DNA of 64,000 nt from Ignavibacteriaceae bacterium (GTDB taxonomy: Bacteria > Bacteroidota > Ignavibacteria > Ignavibacteriales > Ignavibacteriaceae), in assembly GCA_019638025.1 (NCBI GenBank), contig JAHBUO010000002.1, positions 62,001 to 126,000 on the forward strand. Reading direction: 5' to 3'. The position numbers and the translations under genes are program-made. The notes under the pieces are model-generated. The model was given only the letters and a program-made list of their open reading frames with translations. It did not search any database and was not told the DNA's origin. Positions 27,266 through 35,532 of the stretch are shown piece after piece (the first letter of the stretch is position 1; each line of letters starts with the position of its first letter).

Positions 27266-30094
27266 ATGAATTCAATTAAAATCTTTTTTTTACTTATATT
27301 TTTTCAATTACCATTACTATCTCAAGTTTTGGAATGGACACCATTTTTTGCAACCGACCAGGATTCGATTATAATTATTTATGATGCAACAAAAGGAAAT
27401 GGAGCTTTGGCAAATGTGGGTCCGCCAATCTATGCTCATACCGGAGTTATAACAAATCTAAGTACAGGTCCAACAGATTGGAAATATGTAAAAACTCAGT
27501 GGACTCAAAATCTACCCGCAAACACAATGCAATTTTTGGGTGGTGGAAAGTGGAAAATCTCTTTTCACATAAGAAGTTATTATGGAGTGCCTGCATCAGA
27601 ACAAATTTTAAAATTAGCTTTCGTATTTAGAAATGCTGCCGGTACTATAGTTGGACGTGAAGCTGATGGAAGTGATATTTATCTTCCCTTAACTCAAGGT
27701 GGGTTGAATGTCGGATTTTCTCAACCATCGGAGAAACAAATACTGACACAGATAGGTGATACCATTACTGTTACGGCTGTATCTATTCAATCAACAAACT
27801 TAGCTTTGTATCTTGATGGAACATTGCTCAATCAAACATCCTCAAATACTTTGACGCACAAAATTCCGGTTAATGCTATCGGGAAGAAATATGTTAAAGC
27901 TGTTGTTACCGGCTCAAATAATGAAACTAAAGCCGATTCCTTCTACTTTATTGTTAGACCTCCGCTCACTATTGAAGCACTTCCAAATGGTATTGTTGAC
28001 GGAATAAACTATCTGAATAATGCTACTGTTGTTTTATCGATGTATGCTCCTGAAAAGGAGTTTGTTTATCTGATAGGTGATTTTAATAATTGGGAGCTTG
28101 ATAATAATTTCTACATGAAATCAACACCGGATAGAAATCGTTATTGGATTCAACTAAACAATTTAACTCCTCAACAAGAATATCGTTATCAGTTTAATGT
28201 TGATAATAAAATTCGTGTTGCTGATTGGTATGCCGAAAAACTTCTTGACCCATGGAATGATCCTTACATTAGCAATACTACTTACCCAAATCTAACACCA
28301 TATCCGACCGGGAAAACTGCAAATGTAGTTTCAGTATTAAAGACAGCCGAAACTCCTTATCAGTGGCAAACCACCAACTATCAACGTCCGGCGAAAGAAG
28401 ATTTGGTTATTTATGAATTGCTAATAAGAGATTTTTCTGCACGACATGATTATCAATTTTTAATTGATACATTAAGCTACTTGAAAAACTTAGGTGTAAA
28501 TGCAATTGAACTAATGCCGGTAAATGAATTTGAAGGAAATGAAAGTTGGGGCTATAACCCGATGTTCTATTTTGCACCGGATAAATATTATGGACCCAAA
28601 AATGAATTAAAAAGATTCATTGATATTTGTCATCAAAATGGAATTGCAGTAATTCTTGATATGGTATTAAATCATTCTTTCGGTAATTCTCCTATGGTTC
28701 GGTTGTATTGGGATGCCGTAAATAATAGACCGGCAACAAACAGCCCTTGGTTTAATCCTGTTGCGAAACACCCTTATAATGTAGGTTATGATTTTAACCA
28801 CGAAAGTCAGGCAACTAAAGATTTTGTTGATCGTGTGAATAAATATTGGCTTGTTGAATATCGAGTTGACGGTTATCGTTACGATTTAAGCAAAGGTTTC
28901 ACACAAGTTAATAGTGGTGATAATGTTGGATTATGGGGACAGTATGATCAATCCCGTATTAATCTACTAAAAAGAATGGTTGATAAAGTTTGGGAAGTTG
29001 ACCCAACAGCTTATACAATAATGGAGCATTTTGCAGATAATACCGAAGAGAAAGTCTTAGCTGATTATGGTATGATGTTGTGGGGAAATCTCAATTATAA
29101 TTATAGCGAAGCCTCAATGGCTTATCATGATAACAACAAGTCGAATTTATCATGGGGCTCATATAAGAATAGAGGATGGTTGTATCCACATTTGATAACC
29201 TATATGGAAAGTCATGACGAAGAACGGATGGTGGTAAGAAATCTTCTCTACGGAAATTCTTCGGGTTCATATAGTATTAAAAATTTAAATACAGCATTAA
29301 ACAGAATAAAACTTGCATCGGCATTTTTCTATACTATTCCCGGTCCTAAAATGTTATGGCAATTCGGTGAGTTGGGTTACGATATCTCAATCGATTATGA
29401 TTGCCGAGTTTGTAACAAACCCATTCGCTGGAATTATTATGCTGATATAAACCGATTTAATCTTTATCGCACAAAAGCAGCACTGATTAAACTGAAAAGA
29501 GAAAATGAAGCTTTTAGAAGTACAAATTATGCTTTAGATGTAGCTTCAGCAGTTAAAAGAATTCATATTTATCACTCAACAATGGATGTGGCAATAGTCG
29601 GTAATTTTGATGTTGTTCAAAGAAGCGTGAACCCGAACTTTAGCCGAACCGGTTATTGGTATGACTATTTCAGTGGAGATAGCGTAAACGTCTCAAATAC
29701 TCAAGCCCAAATTTCTTTAGAGCCGGGGCAGTTTTACATTTATACAACAAAAAAACTTCCAACTCCTCCGTCCGGAATTTTGCTAAGCGCCGAAGAGAGT
29801 GGAGAAGATTATATTTTAGAATCGTTTACTCTGCAACAGAATTATCCGAATCCATTTAATCCATCAACTACAATTAAATTCTCGATCCCTGAATCAGGTG
29901 AAGTTTCTCTGAAAATCTATGATGTCATCGGAAAAGCAGTTGCAACTCTGGTTGATGAATTTAAGTCTGTTGGGAATTATGAAATAAGCTTTAATTCAAA
30001 TGCGAATGGATTGAATCTTTCAAGTGGGATTTATTTTTATCAGCTAAAAATTAATTCTAAAATTGAGACACGGAAGATGGTTTTACTCCAGTAG
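27266..30094 (+). CDS. Secreted GH13 alpha-amylase-family enzyme with CBM48-like module and T9SS tail
   Basis: This 942-residue protein has a signal peptide (near LLSQ). Residues about 20-240 form beta-rich N-terminal domains. A CBM48/isoamylase-N-like domain lies at about 255-340 (VYLIGDFNNWELDNN). The GH13 barrel has DMVLNH (region I), VDGYRYDLSKG with nucleophile Asp540, IMEHFAD with acid/base Glu587, and MESHDEERM with Asp651, so the catalytic set is complete. The C-terminal T9SS type A domain starts at NYPNPFNP. Likely role: surface digestion of starch, glycogen or a related alpha-glucan. The order of N-terminal modules resembles pullulanase or maltogenic-type enzymes, but the exact linkage specificity is not determinable here. 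Confidence 0.9.
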   Translation: MNSIKIFFLLIFFQLPLLSQVLEWTPFFATDQDSIIIIYDATKGNGALANVGPPIYAHTGVITNLSTGPTDWKYVKTQWTQNLPANTMQFLGGGKWKISFHIRSYYGVPASEQILKLAFVFRNAAGTIVGREADGSDIYLPLTQGGLNVGFSQPSEKQILTQIGDTITVTAVSIQSTNLALYLDGTLLNQTSSNTLTHKIPVNAIGKKYVKAVVTGSNNETKADSFYFIVRPPLTIEALPNGIVDGINYLNNATVVLSMYAPEKEFVYLIGDFNNWELDNNFYMKSTPDRNRYWIQLNNLTPQQEYRYQFNVDNKIRVADWYAEKLLDPWNDPYISNTTYPNLTPYPTGKTANVVSVLKTAETPYQWQTTNYQRPAKEDLVIYELLIRDFSARHDYQFLIDTLSYLKNLGVNAIELMPVNEFEGNESWGYNPMFYFAPDKYYGPKNELKRFIDICHQNGIAVILDMVLNHSFGNSPMVRLYWDAVNNRPATNSPWFNPVAKHPYNVGYDFNHESQATKDFVDRVNKYWLVEYRVDGYRYDLSKGFTQVNSGDNVGLWGQYDQSRINLLKRMVDKVWEVDPTAYTIMEHFADNTEEKVLADYGMMLWGNLNYNYSEASMAYHDNNKSNLSWGSYKNRGWLYPHLITYMESHDEERMVVRNLLYGNSSGSYSIKNLNTALNRIKLASAFFYTIPGPKMLWQFGELGYDISIDYDCRVCNKPIRWNYYADINRFNLYRTKAALIKLKRENEAFRSTNYALDVASAVKRIHIYHSTMDVAIVGNFDVVQRSVNPNFSRTGYWYDYFSGDSVNVSNTQAQISLEPGQFYIYTTKKLPTPPSGILLSAEESGEDYILESFTLQQNYPNPFNPSTTIKFSIPESGEVSLKIYDVIGKAVATLVDEFKSVGNYEISFNSNANGLNLSSGIYFYQLKINSKIETRKMVLLQ

Positions 30095-30393
30095 AAGTAA
30101 GTTTTACCTGTATTTATTACGGAATAGGTAATTTTCTCCGTTAGTTCTTGTGCCTTGGGTTTCGATTTTTGAATTATCTGAAATAGGCTAATTGTTCTTT
30201 ATTTGGCTTTTTTTGTGGGGTAGTAAAAACTTGCATTCGAGGGAGAAATCCCAAAATGGAATAGTGTATCAGAATGAGCCAAATGTTTGTCGAGTAGCCG
30301 GGAAAATAAGCTAAAATTCAGTTGATTCGGCTATTCGGGGATTTGGTATGATAATTGAACAATTTTCTCCAATTAATCAATAGGAGGACACAA
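30095..30393 (+). other. 299-bp leader region upstream of the thioester surface protein
   Basis: No ORF or tRNA is seen. The last 100 bases have TAGCCG at about 30295 pairing with CGGCTA at about 30329 across a 28-base interior, and TATGAT near 30347 as a possible -10 box. A strong AGGAGG (30382-30387) lies 6 bp before the chosen start. The region probably carries the promoter and a structured 5' leader for the long adhesin mRNA. No known riboswitch class was recognised. Confidence 0.35.
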
Positions 30394-33300
30394 ATGGTTC
30401 TTAAATTAACAAACAAAATCTTCTTTTCTACCATGGTTGCATTGGCAGTGATTGTAATGTCATCAGCAATTTATGGATATGGATTAGATACCTCAAAAAC
30501 CGGAACAGATTTCCCGAAAGAGTATTTCAATGGTGCCATGGGAACTGAAAATTCAAGTGTTGCTAAAGTTTTCGGAACGGATAAGGGGGCAAATGTTTCT
30601 TTTACAAACCCTTATACTAACCAAACATTAAATACATGGGCCGGTACTTTTAATGGTCAGATGGATAATAATACAACAAAGTTTTACTGTATTGATATCT
30701 CACATAATATAGTCTACTACACATCAAGTCAACCACATACCTATACTGACGATGGTGTAACTCCTCCGGAGATTACTTACATTTTAAACAATTATTATCC
30801 CTTTAAAGCACTCCCTTATACAGGAAGTTTAACCGAGACAAACGAAGCCGCAGCTGTTCAATTAGCTATTTGGCACTACGCTGATGGTATGAATTTGAAC
30901 ACAGTTTCTGTTAGTGCTCTAAAAACAAGAGCATTACAAATTAAAGCTGATGCTGATGCAAACGCAGGATTAACATCTCCGTTTGAAACTCTTTTAATTT
31001 TACCTCAAACCCAAACTATTTTATTTGGACAAGCGGCAACCATTTCAATATCTGCACTTAATTATGCCGGTTTTCCACAGTCTGGTTTGAATGTAAATCT
31101 TTCTACTACTAATGGAAATCTAAATCCGACTTCTGTTGTTACCGGTGCAAATGGAACTGCTGGACCAATCACCCTAAACCATACAGGTGGATTGACCGCA
31201 ACTATAACAGCTAATGCCAATGCAGCCATTCCTCAAGGAACAAGATTTGTCCATTCAATTTCGCCTAATAATTATCAGAAATTGGTTCTTGCAACACCAA
31301 CAGTGGCAAATAGAGCTGTTACTGCTACCGTGAATTGGTATAGCCCAAATGGAAATTGTGATTTGAATGGTTTCACAACATTTACTCAAGGTGGATGGGG
31401 AAGCCCCTCTAATAGTGGACCTGGACAAATTAGAGATCAATACTTCTCTTCTGTATTTCCGACAGGCTTAGTCATAGGTGGAAATTTCAAAATTACTTTA
31501 ACTTCAGCAACAGCAGTTAAAAATTTCTTGCCTCAAGGAAGTACTGCCCAAGCTTTGACGCAAAATTATACAAATCCAACGACTGATATTACTGTTTTAG
31601 CCGGTCAACTTGCAGCACTTTCAATGAATATTTATTATAACAATGCCGGATATTTAGGGTCAAACCCAACAAAATTGAAAGATCTCGTTGTTTCTGCAGG
31701 TCCTTTAGCCGGATTAACCGTAATGCAAGTGCTTCAATTTGGAAATATTGCTTTAGGTGGCGGCTCAACTCCATATACATTTAGTGAGTTAAATAACGCA
31801 GCTACTATGATTAACGAAAACTTTGTTGATGGTACTGTGAACAATAACGGTTTAACTTGTGAAGTAGTTGTTCCTGCAAGTCTTGGTGATAAAGTATGGT
31901 TAGATGTCAATCAAAACGGTATTCAAGATGGTGGTGAAAACGGTGTTAGCGGGGTTACTGTTAGATTATATACTTGTTCTAATGTATTAGTAGGTCAACA
32001 AACAACAGATAACAACGGTAATTATCTCTTTACAAACCTTGTTCCTGGGTCATACTATGTGAAGTTTATTTTACCTTCAGGTTATCTCTTTAGTCCAAAA
32101 GATCAAGGTTCAAATAATAATGTTGATTCAGATGCGGATCCAAACACCGGGAAAACAGTTTGTATCACTTTAAGTAGTGGACAGACAGACCTTTCATGGG
32201 ATGCGGGTATATATCTTGAAACACAAAATACACAATCAGATTTAAGTTTAACTAAAATAGTTGATAATGCTACTCCAAATGATGGTGATAATGTTACTTA
32301 CACAGTTCAGGTTACAAATCATGGTCCTGCAAATGCAACAGGTGTTGAAGTTACAGATATTCTTCCTGCAGGAGTAGATTTCTTATCGGCTTCAGCATCA
32401 ACCGGTACATTTAACAACACAAACGGTAAATGGACTGTCGGAAACCTTAACAATGGAATGACTGCAACTTTAACTATCACAGTAAAAGTAAATCTTTCGT
32501 CAATAAACACAAGTGCATTCAACTTAGGTGCGGCTCAAGATTTCAATCTTTTTGTTCTTGAAGATTTGAATCAACCTTCATCAGATACCGAAGGAAAAGT
32601 TGCAGTTGGTAGAGATGCAAATCTTTCTAACTATAGTGTTGGAGATAAACTTCCTAATTCTAACGGTGCTGAAGATGTATTGGTAGTTGGCAGAGATTTA
32701 TACTATACTAGCGGTGCAGTAATCGGTGGTAATGTGGTTTATGGAAATGCTACTAATCTCCCGATATATGGCGTTAGCATTACCGGTGGAACATTAAGAA
32801 AAGATGCTACAGCTATTGATTTTGCAGATGCAGCAAGCTACTTAACCGGATTATCGACTCAACTTTCAAATTATACAACAAACGGAACAACTACATTCCA
32901 ATGGTCGGGATTGACACTAAACGGTAGTGACCCTTACTTGAATGTATTTTCAGTTTCAGGTGCTAATTTATCTGATGCTACAAATTTTGTTATCAATGTG
33001 CCGACAGGCTCGGTAGTATTAGTAAATATAGATGGAACAAACATTCACTGGAATGGTGGTTTCTCAGTAAACGGTACAGCAAAAAATAACGTGTTGTTAA
33101 ACTTCTATCAAGAAACTAATCTGACAATAGTTGGAATCGGAGTTCTTGGTTCAGTATTAGCTCCTTTTGCTGATGTTAACTTTGCTTCCGGTGTTATTAA
33201 TGGCCAAGTGATTTGTAAATCTATGACCGGACAAGGTCAATTTAACTTAGCTCCATTCATTGGAAATATTCCTTCAGAAACTACATTAAAGAATATTGCT

Positions 33301-34584
33301 GAAGTTACAGCATGTGATCAAAATGATCCCGATTCAACACCGGGCAACGGTATTGAAACAGAAGACGATTTTGGATTTGCATCAATTACAGTTACACGCC
33401 AAACTACACCTACTGGTGGAACTGGAAATGCAAACTGGCAATTAGTTAGTTCATTCGGATTCGGTGAAATCGTATGGACAATGGTTCGTGACAACAACGG
33501 AAATATGTTATCAGGTACATGGGGTGGAAATATCTATCGCTCACTTGATAATGGAATTAACTGGACACGCATCAATAGCTCGATGTCAGTAGTATTTGTA
33601 TGGTCATTAGCAATTAACTCAAGCAATCATATTTTTGCCGGAACAGAGCATGGCGTTTATAAATCAGTTGATGATGGTGCAAGCTGGCAATTAACTTCAT
33701 TAAGCGGAAAAGATGTTCGTTCAGTAGTTATTACTGCAAACGGTACATTATTAGCCGGTACATGGGGTTATGGTGTCTACAAATCAGTTGATAACGGAGC
33801 TACATGGTCACAAGTCAACACTGGGCTAGCTAATAGCACGGTTATGGCTTTGGCTGTAAACTCAAACAACTCAGTGTTTGCCGGAACATTTGGTGCCGGA
33901 GTTAGCAAATCAGTTAATGAAGGTGGTTCATGGTCTACATTAAATGTTGGTTACAATTATGTATGGTCATTAGCAATTACTTCTGATGATGTAATCTTTG
34001 CCGGAACTTATGGAAATGGATTATATCGCTCAACAGATTTTGGTGCTACCTGGTCAAAAGTTGACAACGGCTTAAATGCAAATTACATTTATGCTATCCA
34101 AATTGATAATGATGATAATATCTTCGTAAGTGCTTGGGCAGCAGGTGTTTATGCTTCAACAAACAGTGGAAACAACTGGGCTACATTCGGTATGGGCGGA
34201 TTTGGTGTGAGTTCATTACTCTTAAATACAGATGACGGAACTATCTATGCCGGAACAAGTACAGGTCAACTTTATAAATCAAACTCAACAGTACTTTCTG
34301 CAAAGAATGAAACTTTACCGGTTGAATTTAAGTTGGAACAAAATTATCCAAACCCATTCAATCCGACTACAACAATTAACTTTAGTGTTCCTCAAAACGG
34401 AAACTATCAGTTAAAAGTGTTTAACATTCTTGGTCAAGAAGTAGCAACCTTATTAAATGGTGAACTAAAAACCGGAAATCATTCAATCAACTTTGATGCA
34501 TCAAAACTTGCTTCAGGTGTGTATGTTTACAGATTTACCGGAAATAATGTTAACATTTCTAAGAAGATGTTGTTACAAAAGTAA
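30394..34584 (+). CDS. Multidomain surface adhesin: thioester domain, SdrD-B, DUF11 split by choice-of-anchor-A, propeller, T9SS tail
   Basis: The start is set at ATG 30394, after AGGAGG (30382). An upstream in-frame start at 30355 lacks a site. The 1396-residue product has a signal peptide (1-29). A thioester adhesin domain follows, with FYCID (Cys99) and AVQLAIW (Gln156), the pair that forms a Cys-Gln thioester in this family. Unassigned beta domains run to about 490. Next come an SdrD-B-like domain (about 495-608, GDKVWLDVNQNGIQDG) and a DUF11 domain beginning at about 615. At about 705-962 a choice-of-anchor-A domain interrupts it, and DUF11 resumes at NIAEVTACDQ to about 1000. A BNR-like propeller of GVYKSVDxGxxW repeats lies at about 1012-1300, then a T9SS tail (NYPNPFNP). 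It probably attaches covalently to surfaces. Confidence 0.85.
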   Translation: MVLKLTNKIFFSTMVALAVIVMSSAIYGYGLDTSKTGTDFPKEYFNGAMGTENSSVAKVFGTDKGANVSFTNPYTNQTLNTWAGTFNGQMDNNTTKFYCIDISHNIVYYTSSQPHTYTDDGVTPPEITYILNNYYPFKALPYTGSLTETNEAAAVQLAIWHYADGMNLNTVSVSALKTRALQIKADADANAGLTSPFETLLILPQTQTILFGQAATISISALNYAGFPQSGLNVNLSTTNGNLNPTSVVTGANGTAGPITLNHTGGLTATITANANAAIPQGTRFVHSISPNNYQKLVLATPTVANRAVTATVNWYSPNGNCDLNGFTTFTQGGWGSPSNSGPGQIRDQYFSSVFPTGLVIGGNFKITLTSATAVKNFLPQGSTAQALTQNYTNPTTDITVLAGQLAALSMNIYYNNAGYLGSNPTKLKDLVVSAGPLAGLTVMQVLQFGNIALGGGSTPYTFSELNNAATMINENFVDGTVNNNGLTCEVVVPASLGDKVWLDVNQNGIQDGGENGVSGVTVRLYTCSNVLVGQQTTDNNGNYLFTNLVPGSYYVKFILPSGYLFSPKDQGSNNNVDSDADPNTGKTVCITLSSGQTDLSWDAGIYLETQNTQSDLSLTKIVDNATPNDGDNVTYTVQVTNHGPANATGVEVTDILPAGVDFLSASASTGTFNNTNGKWTVGNLNNGMTATLTITVKVNLSSINTSAFNLGAAQDFNLFVLEDLNQPSSDTEGKVAVGRDANLSNYSVGDKLPNSNGAEDVLVVGRDLYYTSGAVIGGNVVYGNATNLPIYGVSITGGTLRKDATAIDFADAASYLTGLSTQLSNYTTNGTTTFQWSGLTLNGSDPYLNVFSVSGANLSDATNFVINVPTGSVVLVNIDGTNIHWNGGFSVNGTAKNNVLLNFYQETNLTIVGIGVLGSVLAPFADVNFASGVINGQVICKSMTGQGQFNLAPFIGNIPSETTLKNIAEVTACDQNDPDSTPGNGIETEDDFGFASITVTRQTTPTGGTGNANWQLVSSFGFGEIVWTMVRDNNGNMLSGTWGGNIYRSLDNGINWTRINSSMSVVFVWSLAINSSNHIFAGTEHGVYKSVDDGASWQLTSLSGKDVRSVVITANGTLLAGTWGYGVYKSVDNGATWSQVNTGLANSTVMALAVNSNNSVFAGTFGAGVSKSVNEGGSWSTLNVGYNYVWSLAITSDDVIFAGTYGNGLYRSTDFGATWSKVDNGLNANYIYAIQIDNDDNIFVSAWAAGVYASTNSGNNWATFGMGGFGVSSLLLNTDDGTIYAGTSTGQLYKSNSTVLSAKNETLPVEFKLEQNYPNPFNPTTTINFSVPQNGNYQLKVFNILGQEVATLLNGELKTGNHSINFDASKLASGVYVYRFTGNNVNISKKMLLQK
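33460..34290 (+). repeat. In-gene propeller repeats of the surface adhesin
   Basis: About six units of roughly 42 codons carry the pattern (I/L/V)FAGTxGxGVYKSVDxGxxW. Examples are FAGTEHGVYKSVDDGASW, LAGTWGYGVYKSVDNGATW and FAGTYGNGLYRSTDFGATW. They form a BNR/sortilin-like beta-propeller in the product. DNA identity between units is moderate, so recent expansion is not evident. Confidence 0.8.
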
Positions 34585-34642: not shown

Positions 34643-34937
34643 AAAGGGATATTGATGTGTACTGTAAAATCACCAACTCACCATAAGTTATTCTTGTGTG
34701 AAGAGAAGAACTTATAATTTCCCTAAAAATTAAATATTTGTTTTCCTATAGAAGAACTTTTGCGCCTCTTGTGTTTAGGTGCCTTCGGTTTTAAGAAAAA
34801 ACTCCAACACAAAGTTCACTAAGGGAAACCACACGAAGTGCACAATTTGTGATGCATTAAAAACTTAGAGGCAACTGTTTTTTTTTATATTGCATATATA
34901 TCACCAATGTGATATCATTCCTAAAAAGAATTATAAA
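34643..34937. other. Gene-free spacer with decayed CACAAAG/CACTAAGG-type sequence
   Basis: With the terminator just before it, the gap from the adhesin to the antitoxin is 353 bp. No credible ORF is seen. Bases 34804-34846 contain CACAAAGTTCACTAAGG and ACACGAAGTGCACAA, and 34757-34790 hold a roughly complementary text (GCGCCTCTTGTGTTTAGG). Such strings recur as short degenerate repeats near accessory genes in many environmental genomes (recollection, not checked). Confidence 0.4.
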
Positions 34938-35165
34938 ATGATACGAACAATAATATCACTCCCAAGGGAAATAAAAGTCTGGTTAGACGATTATTCGAAG
35001 AAAAAAAATAAACCAACTGCAGAAACAATCAGGGAAGCATTAATCCAATATCGAGAAAAAGTAGAATCAGAAAAAATAGACGCCCTCTCCATAACAGCCG
35101 GAATTTGGTCTGAAAAGAAAATTGATGGTAATGATTATGTAGAAAAGTCAAGAGCAGACTGGTGA
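34938..35165 (+). CDS. Ribbon-helix-helix (CopG-like) antitoxin
   Basis: This 75-residue protein starts with MIRTIISLPREIKVWLDDY, a beta strand and first helix typical of ribbon-helix-helix DNA-binding antitoxins. TAETIREALIQYRE then forms the second helix. An upstream in-frame ATG at 34890 would add 16 residues without domain content, so 34938 is preferred. The acidic and aromatic C-terminal part (about 50-75) probably wraps the toxin. The stop lies 4 bp before a PIN-domain gene, the normal antitoxin-toxin order. The complex is expected to repress its own promoter. Confidence 0.8.
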   Translation: MIRTIISLPREIKVWLDDYSKKKNKPTAETIREALIQYREKVESEKIDALSITAGIWSEKKIDGNDYVEKSRADW

Positions 35166-35169
35166 TGAT

Positions 35170-35532
35170 ATGAAATATGTTATAGATACGGTTATTTTAA
35201 TTGATCACTTGAATGGGATTAAGAAAGCTACACAATGGCTGAAGCGAAATAACGATTCATTTATAAGTCCGATAACAAGAGCCGAATTATTGGTTGGAAC
35301 AGCAGAAACTGAAAAACACTCAATAAAATTACTTTTAGACAGTTTTGAAACACTCCCAATCAACAATGAAGTTGCAGATTTAGCAGCAGAGCTACGAAAG
35401 AAATTTAGATTTAAACTTCCGGATGCATTTCATGCAGCGTTAGCGGTAATAAATAAGGTGAAATTAGTAACAAGAAATACTAAGGATTTTAGTTCGGAGA
35501 TGGGATTTGTTATAATACCTTATAAACTCTAG
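35170..35532 (+). CDS. VapC-like PIN-domain ribonuclease toxin
   Basis: This 120-residue protein has the complete acidic site of PIN ribonucleases: Asp6 in YVIDTVILIDHL, Glu39 in TRAELLVG, Asp85 in LPDAFHAA and Asp106 in TRNTKDF. VapC toxins cut tRNA or rRNA when the labile antitoxin is lost, stopping growth under stress. Length and motif spacing are typical, so it should be active. The pair stands alone between a terminator and a convergent transporter gene, in a spacer with repeat-like text, which suggests an accessory insertion (inference). Confidence 0.88.
   Translation: MKYVIDTVILIDHLNGIKKATQWLKRNNDSFISPITRAELLVGTAETEKHSIKLLLDSFETLPINNEVADLAAELRKKFRFKLPDAFHAALAVINKVKLVTRNTKDFSSEMGFVIIPYKL

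Follow-up and report, generated by a model that had tools for sequence, protein, structure and literature searches.

The window analysed here, a 64,000-nucleotide stretch of an Ignavibacteriaceae genome (assembly GCA_019638025.1, contig JAHBUO010000002.1, positions 62,001 to 126,000), contains a gene for a 1396-amino-acid (aa) protein that carries a thioester domain (TED) near its N-terminus and a sorting domain of the type IX secretion system (T9SS) at its C-terminus. TEDs are described as a Gram-positive trait in the literature that we searched, and in that literature, mainly open-access, we did not find the terms 'thioester domain' and type IX secretion together. The gene and its features are laid out as follows, in window coordinates:

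30382..30387, + strand: ribosome-binding site AGGAGG, 6 bases 5′ of the ATG at 30394, read from the sequence
30394..34584, + strand: whole gene for the predicted T9SS-exported thioester protein of 1396 aa, an open frame from ATG 30394 with Pfam and NCBIfam domains
30394..30474, + strand: Sec-type signal peptide, residues 1 to ∼27, recognised by eye (MVLKLTNKIFFSTMVALAVIVMSSAIYG)
30556..31341, + strand: Class II-type TED, residues 55–316 (PF08341; 62-member alignment; hhalign to a Streptomyces TED protein)
30688..30690, + strand: Cys99 (YCID), predicted thioester nucleophile, invariant in 62/62 and the only Cys of the domain in this sequence
30859..30861, + strand: Gln156 of the TQxxPhiW motif (helix alpha2), with a predicted supporting role for the bond rather than a direct part in it; invariant in 62/62, in a helix in the model (motif role, PMC6194298)
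30982..31221, + strand: immunoglobulin (Ig)-like beta-sandwich insert lying between helix alpha3 and strand P (the position of the Class II slipknot insert), of the Big_1 (invasin/intimin) type in the family (Big_1 in 35/43 members; intimin hits)
31276..31278, + strand: Gln295 (NYQKLV), with which Cys99 is predicted to form the thioester; invariant in 62/62, on a PhiQzPhiPhi-like strand and in register with the Gln modelled as bond partner in TIEpLS20
31876..32211, + strand: SdrD B-like stalk domain, residues 495–606 (PF17210, 137 bits)
32239..32499, + strand: first part of a CLIPPER/DUF11 isopeptide domain with Lys621 and Asp655 (PF01345; residue conservation in 54 rows)
32524..33246, + strand: choice_anch_A/pAdhesive_15 ice-binding-like domain nested inside CLIPPER (PF20597, 201 bits; TIGR04215, 197.5 bits)
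33265..33402, + strand: last part of CLIPPER/DUF11 with Asn967, predicted to be bonded to Lys621 (Asn in 52/54 rows; DUF11 score gain without the insert)
33436..34293, + strand: BNR/Sortilin-like beta-propeller repeats (PF15902, PF02012, PF07494)
34345..34575, + strand: T9SS type A C-terminal sorting domain (TIGR04183, 44.1 bits; PF18962, 43.6 bits)

Both ends of the protein are recognised by domain models. The TED scores against PF08341 (Pfam cut-off 22) are 45.1 bits for the whole protein and 51.7 bits for the locus, and the tail matches Por_Secre_tail (PF18962) at 43.6 bits (cut-off 27) and TIGR04183 at 44.1 bits (cut-off 23). A first-pass annotation, made from the letters alone, had proposed a thioester domain from the motifs FYCID (Cys99) and AVQLAIW (Gln156), which it numbered correctly: they occupy residues 97–101 and 154–160. 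The domain is real. Besides the profile score, 61 homologues never vary at Cys99 or Gln156, and these homologues together with the Pfam and NCBIfam scores exclude a chance match. The T9SS tail that the same annotation had described clears both cut-offs, and its statement that an LPxTG-type anchor is missing agrees with our searches, in which Pfam found no anchor domain in the protein and no sortase match was found in the genome; the same sortase search was positive in three Gram-positive controls.

Conservation was assessed in an alignment of 62 TEDs, comprising this one and 61 extracted relatives, nearly all from the same order of Ignavibacteria. Because relatives were located in profile hits by their first [YF]C[IV]D motif, the constancy of the Cys column partly reflects selection; Gln295 played no part in the selection, and every PF08341 profile hit carried the motif. 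The sequences are divergent, with a median pairwise identity of 38% and a minimum of 22%. Thirteen columns are invariant in 62/62, including Cys99, Asp101, Gln156, Trp160 and Gln295 and no further Cys or Gln. The check that had been suggested for the domain, conservation of Cys99 and Gln156 in homologues, thus found both residues in every sequence. Exactly one Cys lies within the TED in 53 of the 62 members, leaving Cys99 without a disulfide partner inside the domain.

Gln156 and Gln295 are equally invariant, and published TEDs bear on which of them would bond with Cys99. In TEDs, the thioester Gln belongs to a weak PhiQzPhiPhi motif on strand Q, and helix alpha2 carries the TQxxPhiW motif, whose Gln and Trp mostly hydrogen-bond the Cys backbone (PMC4450167, PMC6194298). 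Both TQxxPhiW residues are non-essential in Cpa, where mutation of the Gln left the bond formed, and all TEDs with a structurally mapped bond place the partner Gln in strand Q and never in TQxxPhiW (PMC4450167, PMC6194298). In our family, the Cys motif is [YF]C[IV]D in 62/62 members, matching the [YFL]C-hydrophobic-hydrophilic motif of TEDs, and Gln295 (in YQKLV here) is present in 62/62; the residue preceding this Gln is not hydrophobic in every member. Cys99 and Gln295 are 196 residues apart, and the spacing runs from 188 to 204 across the alignment; those of Class II TEDs are 195 in BaTIE, 171 in SaTIE, 204 in EfmTIE86 and 188 in TIEpLS20 (PMC6194298, PMC8092201). One other PhiQzPhiPhi match in the sequence, Gln207 (TQTIL), was rejected as the partner; it is conserved in only 50/62 members and lies 108 residues from Cys99. 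From homology and invariance, we consider a thioester between Cys99 and Gln295 highly probable.

By its Ig-like insert and a Cys-Gln spacing that falls within the range of about 170–205 expected of the class, the domain is classed on sequence as a Class II TED. Of 43 members scanned with Pfam (E ≤ 0.01), 35 have a Big_1 match in the insert that separates helix alpha3 from strand P, the present sequence being unmatched; the TED itself is matched in all 43. Aligned by hhalign, the family matches a Streptomyces 'Cys-Gln thioester bond-forming surface protein' (WP_326683026, L118) with an E-value of 1.3e-11 over 222 columns, and the alignment spans the Ig-like insert and reaches the strand-Q region (VPVG...Q...ATVNW versus IPQG...Q...ATVNW). 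An independent control was the TED adhesin encoded on the B. subtilis plasmid pLS20 (L120). Counted from its annotated start, its Cys57 and Gln245 correspond to Cys68 and Gln256 in the numbering of PMC8092201, where Cys68 is needed for conjugation and Gln256 is modelled as its partner. A mixed MAFFT alignment sets the pLS20 YQRL on the family YQKL, and hence Gln295 over Gln256. A phmmer search of the PDB with the domain returned no TED match, and the family profile retrieved intimin/invasin structures (Big_1), together with weak matches to ancillary protein 2 (4c0z) and a fibronectin-binding protein (5dcq). We ran AlphaFold twice, each time from three sequences only and without templates. In the second model Cys99 and Gln295 lie in strands and Gln156 lies in a helix, and strands follow the third helix. 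Foldseek searches with the models rank BaTIE (6fwv) 7–8 for the first and 3–4 for the second (∼250 columns), with Cpa appearing from rank 14.

Behind the tip, the stalk contains a domain inserted into another. DUF11 was recently renamed CLIPPER, a fold with a Lys-Asn isopeptide bond and a catalytic Asp (K715, D748, N806; PMC12617251). In our protein the DUF11 match breaks off at position 93 of its 114-position profile, immediately ahead of pAdhesive_15, and continues on the far side of that domain; without the insert, the score climbs from 104.8 to 118.1 bits and coverage extends from 1–93 to 1–106 of 114. The triad is kept in the family: of 54 rows, 53 have Lys621 (the other has a gap), 49 have Asp and 4 have Glu at the position of Asp655, and 52 have Asn967; the Lys-Asp spacing is 34 here versus 33 in the solved CLIPPER domain. 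The split match, the score gain and the preserved triad indicate that the ice-binding-like domain is nested in a predicted isopeptide domain. A truncated DUF11 directly before pAdhesive_15 is found in 11 of 13 full-length relatives scanned, so that, in sequence terms, nesting between the putative catalytic Asp and bonded Asn is conserved in nearly every relative. The two exceptions are L106 and a short protein of genome L059. In the former (L106:18–3890, +), pAdhesive_15 lies in front of the TED instead of behind it, a domain permutation. Genome L059 encodes a pair of short TED proteins, of 499 and 483 aa, ∼10 kb apart, both with T9SS tails, and the 483-aa protein is a minimal version consisting of TED, Big_1 and tail only. 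An isopeptide bond between Lys621 and Asn967, with Asp655 as catalyst, would follow from the conserved triad; if it forms, an isopeptide domain would clamp an inserted ice-binding-like adhesive domain.

Delivery by T9SS is a consistent property of the family. A tail starting NYPNPFNP is present on 55/55 complete members, and the tail of our protein begins with NYPNPFNP and ends KKM...K. In the genome, T9SS tails number at least 150 and PorV-family matches at least 20, and three matches are to C25/PorU-type proteases. The SprA_N Pfam model matched neither this genome nor the controls and is uninformative. The proposal that TED chemistry is delivered by the type IX machine is thus borne out as far as sequence goes, by a real TED on a T9SS cargo, T9SS parts in the genome and no sortase match; export would probably proceed by Sec and then T9SS. 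In Porphyromonas, T9SS cargo passes through a thioester-bound complex with PorU and is then attached to surface lipopolysaccharide (PMC10202324). If anchored as in Porphyromonas, the protein would be covalently held at both ends. A protein from another family of the same phylum (L111:1300–1965, +; 221 aa) has a weak TED match of 23.7 bits with YCVD...ALQAAIWH and a PEP-CTERM tail (TIGR02595, 22.4 bits), possibly a third TED delivery route in Gram-negatives.

The closest public relatives are Ignavibacteria metagenome-assembled genomes (MAGs), at 82% and 51% identity. Whole-genome scans with PF08341 identified a TED in 33 of the 80 genomes scanned from the same family and in 91 of the 164 from the same order. 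Among 395 genomes drawn evenly from the phylum, TEDs occur in 33, with 31 from the same order, one from the same class and one from elsewhere. No relatives were found in the viral contigs searched.

The best overall explanation, to which we assign a probability of about 0.8, is that the gene encodes a T9SS-exported Class II thioester adhesin with a covalent Cys99-Gln295 tip on an isopeptide stalk. The domains, the invariant Cys and two Gln residues, the Class II spacing, the T9SS tails on complete relatives and the isopeptide triad are read directly from sequence. We infer from them that the thioester and isopeptide bonds form, that the protein is anchored at the surface and that it binds its target covalently. 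The Sec signal and T9SS tail would direct export as a fibrillar surface protein, the tail probably also fixing it to the surface, and the N-terminal TED would form its internal Cys99-Gln295 thioester. Attack on this bond by a target amine would leave the cell covalently bound. From tip to base, the fibre would then consist of the TED, the SdrD-B-like stalk, a CLIPPER domain cross-linked from Lys621 to Asn967 (Asp655 as catalyst) with the nested ice-binding-like domain, the beta-propeller and the T9SS tail.

Several observations weigh against this explanation. SprA is present only as a fragment in the MAG that carries the gene (86% complete), and is full length in a sister genome (TIGR04189). 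The hhalign comparison with the pLS20 TED aligned the Cys stretch only, so the Gln match rests on MAFFT. Both AlphaFold models are weak, with a mean predicted local distance difference test score (pLDDT) of 57 that is lowest around the Cys and Gln295 strands, and their template modelling (TM) scores to BaTIE are 0.29–0.34, so that bond geometry and slipknot rest on a low-confidence model. This low-confidence geometry leaves some room for a protein that keeps the TED fold with a free or structural Cys and sticks non-covalently via its other domains, the chemistry being only predicted. We find that alternative unlikely, given that Cys99 and Gln295 are invariant across 62 divergent members and that the domain holds a single Cys in 53 of them. 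Less credible still is the Cys99-Gln156 bond of the first-pass annotation. Gln156 is indeed invariant in 62/62; the mapped TEDs, however, place the bond Gln in strand Q, the Cpa helix-Gln mutant kept its bond (PMC4450167, PMC6194298), and Gln295 fits both strand and spacing while being equally invariant. On these grounds we rejected Gln156 as the partner. The distinction is practical, since the bond Gln is predicted to be Gln295 and a mutant test built on the Cys99-Gln156 pair would be misdirected.

With Cys99-Gln295 as the preferred pair, the thioester would be expected to react with an amine of the target's surface, by analogy with SfbI, whose TED bonds a fibrinogen Lys (PMC4450167, PMC6194298). 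The target may be a microbial, matrix or polymer amine, and the 'host' of the first-pass annotation may be the wrong word for it, because the named relatives, which are Ignavibacteria MAGs, give no hint of a host. A sub-case that differs in target only is that the TED bonds the producer's own biofilm matrix, own copies or neighbours rather than a foreign host or prey. The origin of the named relatives, a gene neighbourhood with nothing pointing to a host, the putative adhesive ice-binding-like domain in the same protein and the B. subtilis TED adhesin that works between like cells in conjugation (PMC8092201) all lend it some plausibility; the cited mapped TED target, however, is host fibrinogen (PMC4450167, cited in PMC6194298), and we hold the sub-case only tentatively, as somewhat less probable than its negation.

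The upstream neighbour (window 27266–30094) encodes an alpha-amylase-superfamily protein with a T9SS tail, and the same gene also precedes the sister genome's TED gene (L054:2872–5688). Just downstream of the TED gene in the window (34890–35532) is a short open reading frame (ORF) with a ribbon-helix-helix look by eye, which has no NCBIfam match, followed by a VapC/PIN-type toxin-like ORF that scores 30 bits, under the equivalog cut-off.

The individual domains are already recognised by NCBI and Pfam models; their combination, its spread through the order and the nested CLIPPER are undescribed in the literature searched. It is rather likely, we think, that covalent thioester adhesion belongs to the established traits of a Gram-negative order, in which most Ignavibacteria would carry a Class II TED as the tip of a fibre exported by T9SS; the isopeptide domain, if its bond forms, would in addition clamp an ice-binding-like insert. 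If so, the same covalent tip chemistry has been joined to two unrelated surface-attachment systems, sortase/LPxTG and PorU/T9SS, and would work at a Gram-negative surface after passage through the periplasm and a translocon of the outer membrane. Having one Cys and a predicted partner Gln, the domain offers a clean and directly testable system, in which a tempting mis-assignment of the thioester Gln (Gln156) is corrected to Gln295.

By domain architecture, the protein is a Gram-negative, T9SS-delivered counterpart of the Gram-positive TIE proteins. Like the Class II members BaTIE, SaTIE, EfmTIE86 and TIEpLS20, it has the TED at an N-terminal tip, a [YF]CID-type Cys motif, a TQxxPhiW-like helix, a long Ig-like insert after helix alpha3, a PhiQzPhiPhi Gln ∼170–205 residues past the Cys, and an isopeptide stalk behind. 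Unlike them, it belongs to a Gram-negative cell, a T9SS tail replaces LPxTG and sortase, most members carry a Big_1 (invasin/intimin) insert, and V or I replaces the T of the TQ motif; the CnaB stalk of BaTIE gives way to SdrD_B and CLIPPER. The actinobacterial 'Cys-Gln thioester bond-forming surface proteins' provide the best-aligned homologue found outside the phylum (Streptomyces WP_326683026), which has the whole Class II layout but only 27% identity and, by eye, a C-terminus resembling a Gram-positive anchor (LAETG and a hydrophobic tail). The stalk resembles that of another Gram-negative fibrillar adhesin, Acinetobacter B9T28_05395, in its Lys-Asp-Asn triad and near-equal Lys-Asp spacing, and differs in the ∼240-aa ice-binding-like insert between Asp and Asn, the TED tip, and a T9SS rather than OmpA-like anchor. 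As in T9SS type A cargo, the C-terminal sorting domain starts NYPNPFNP and ends KKM...K; unlike the usual cargo of this type, the protein is predicted to carry a reactive thioester at its opposite end.

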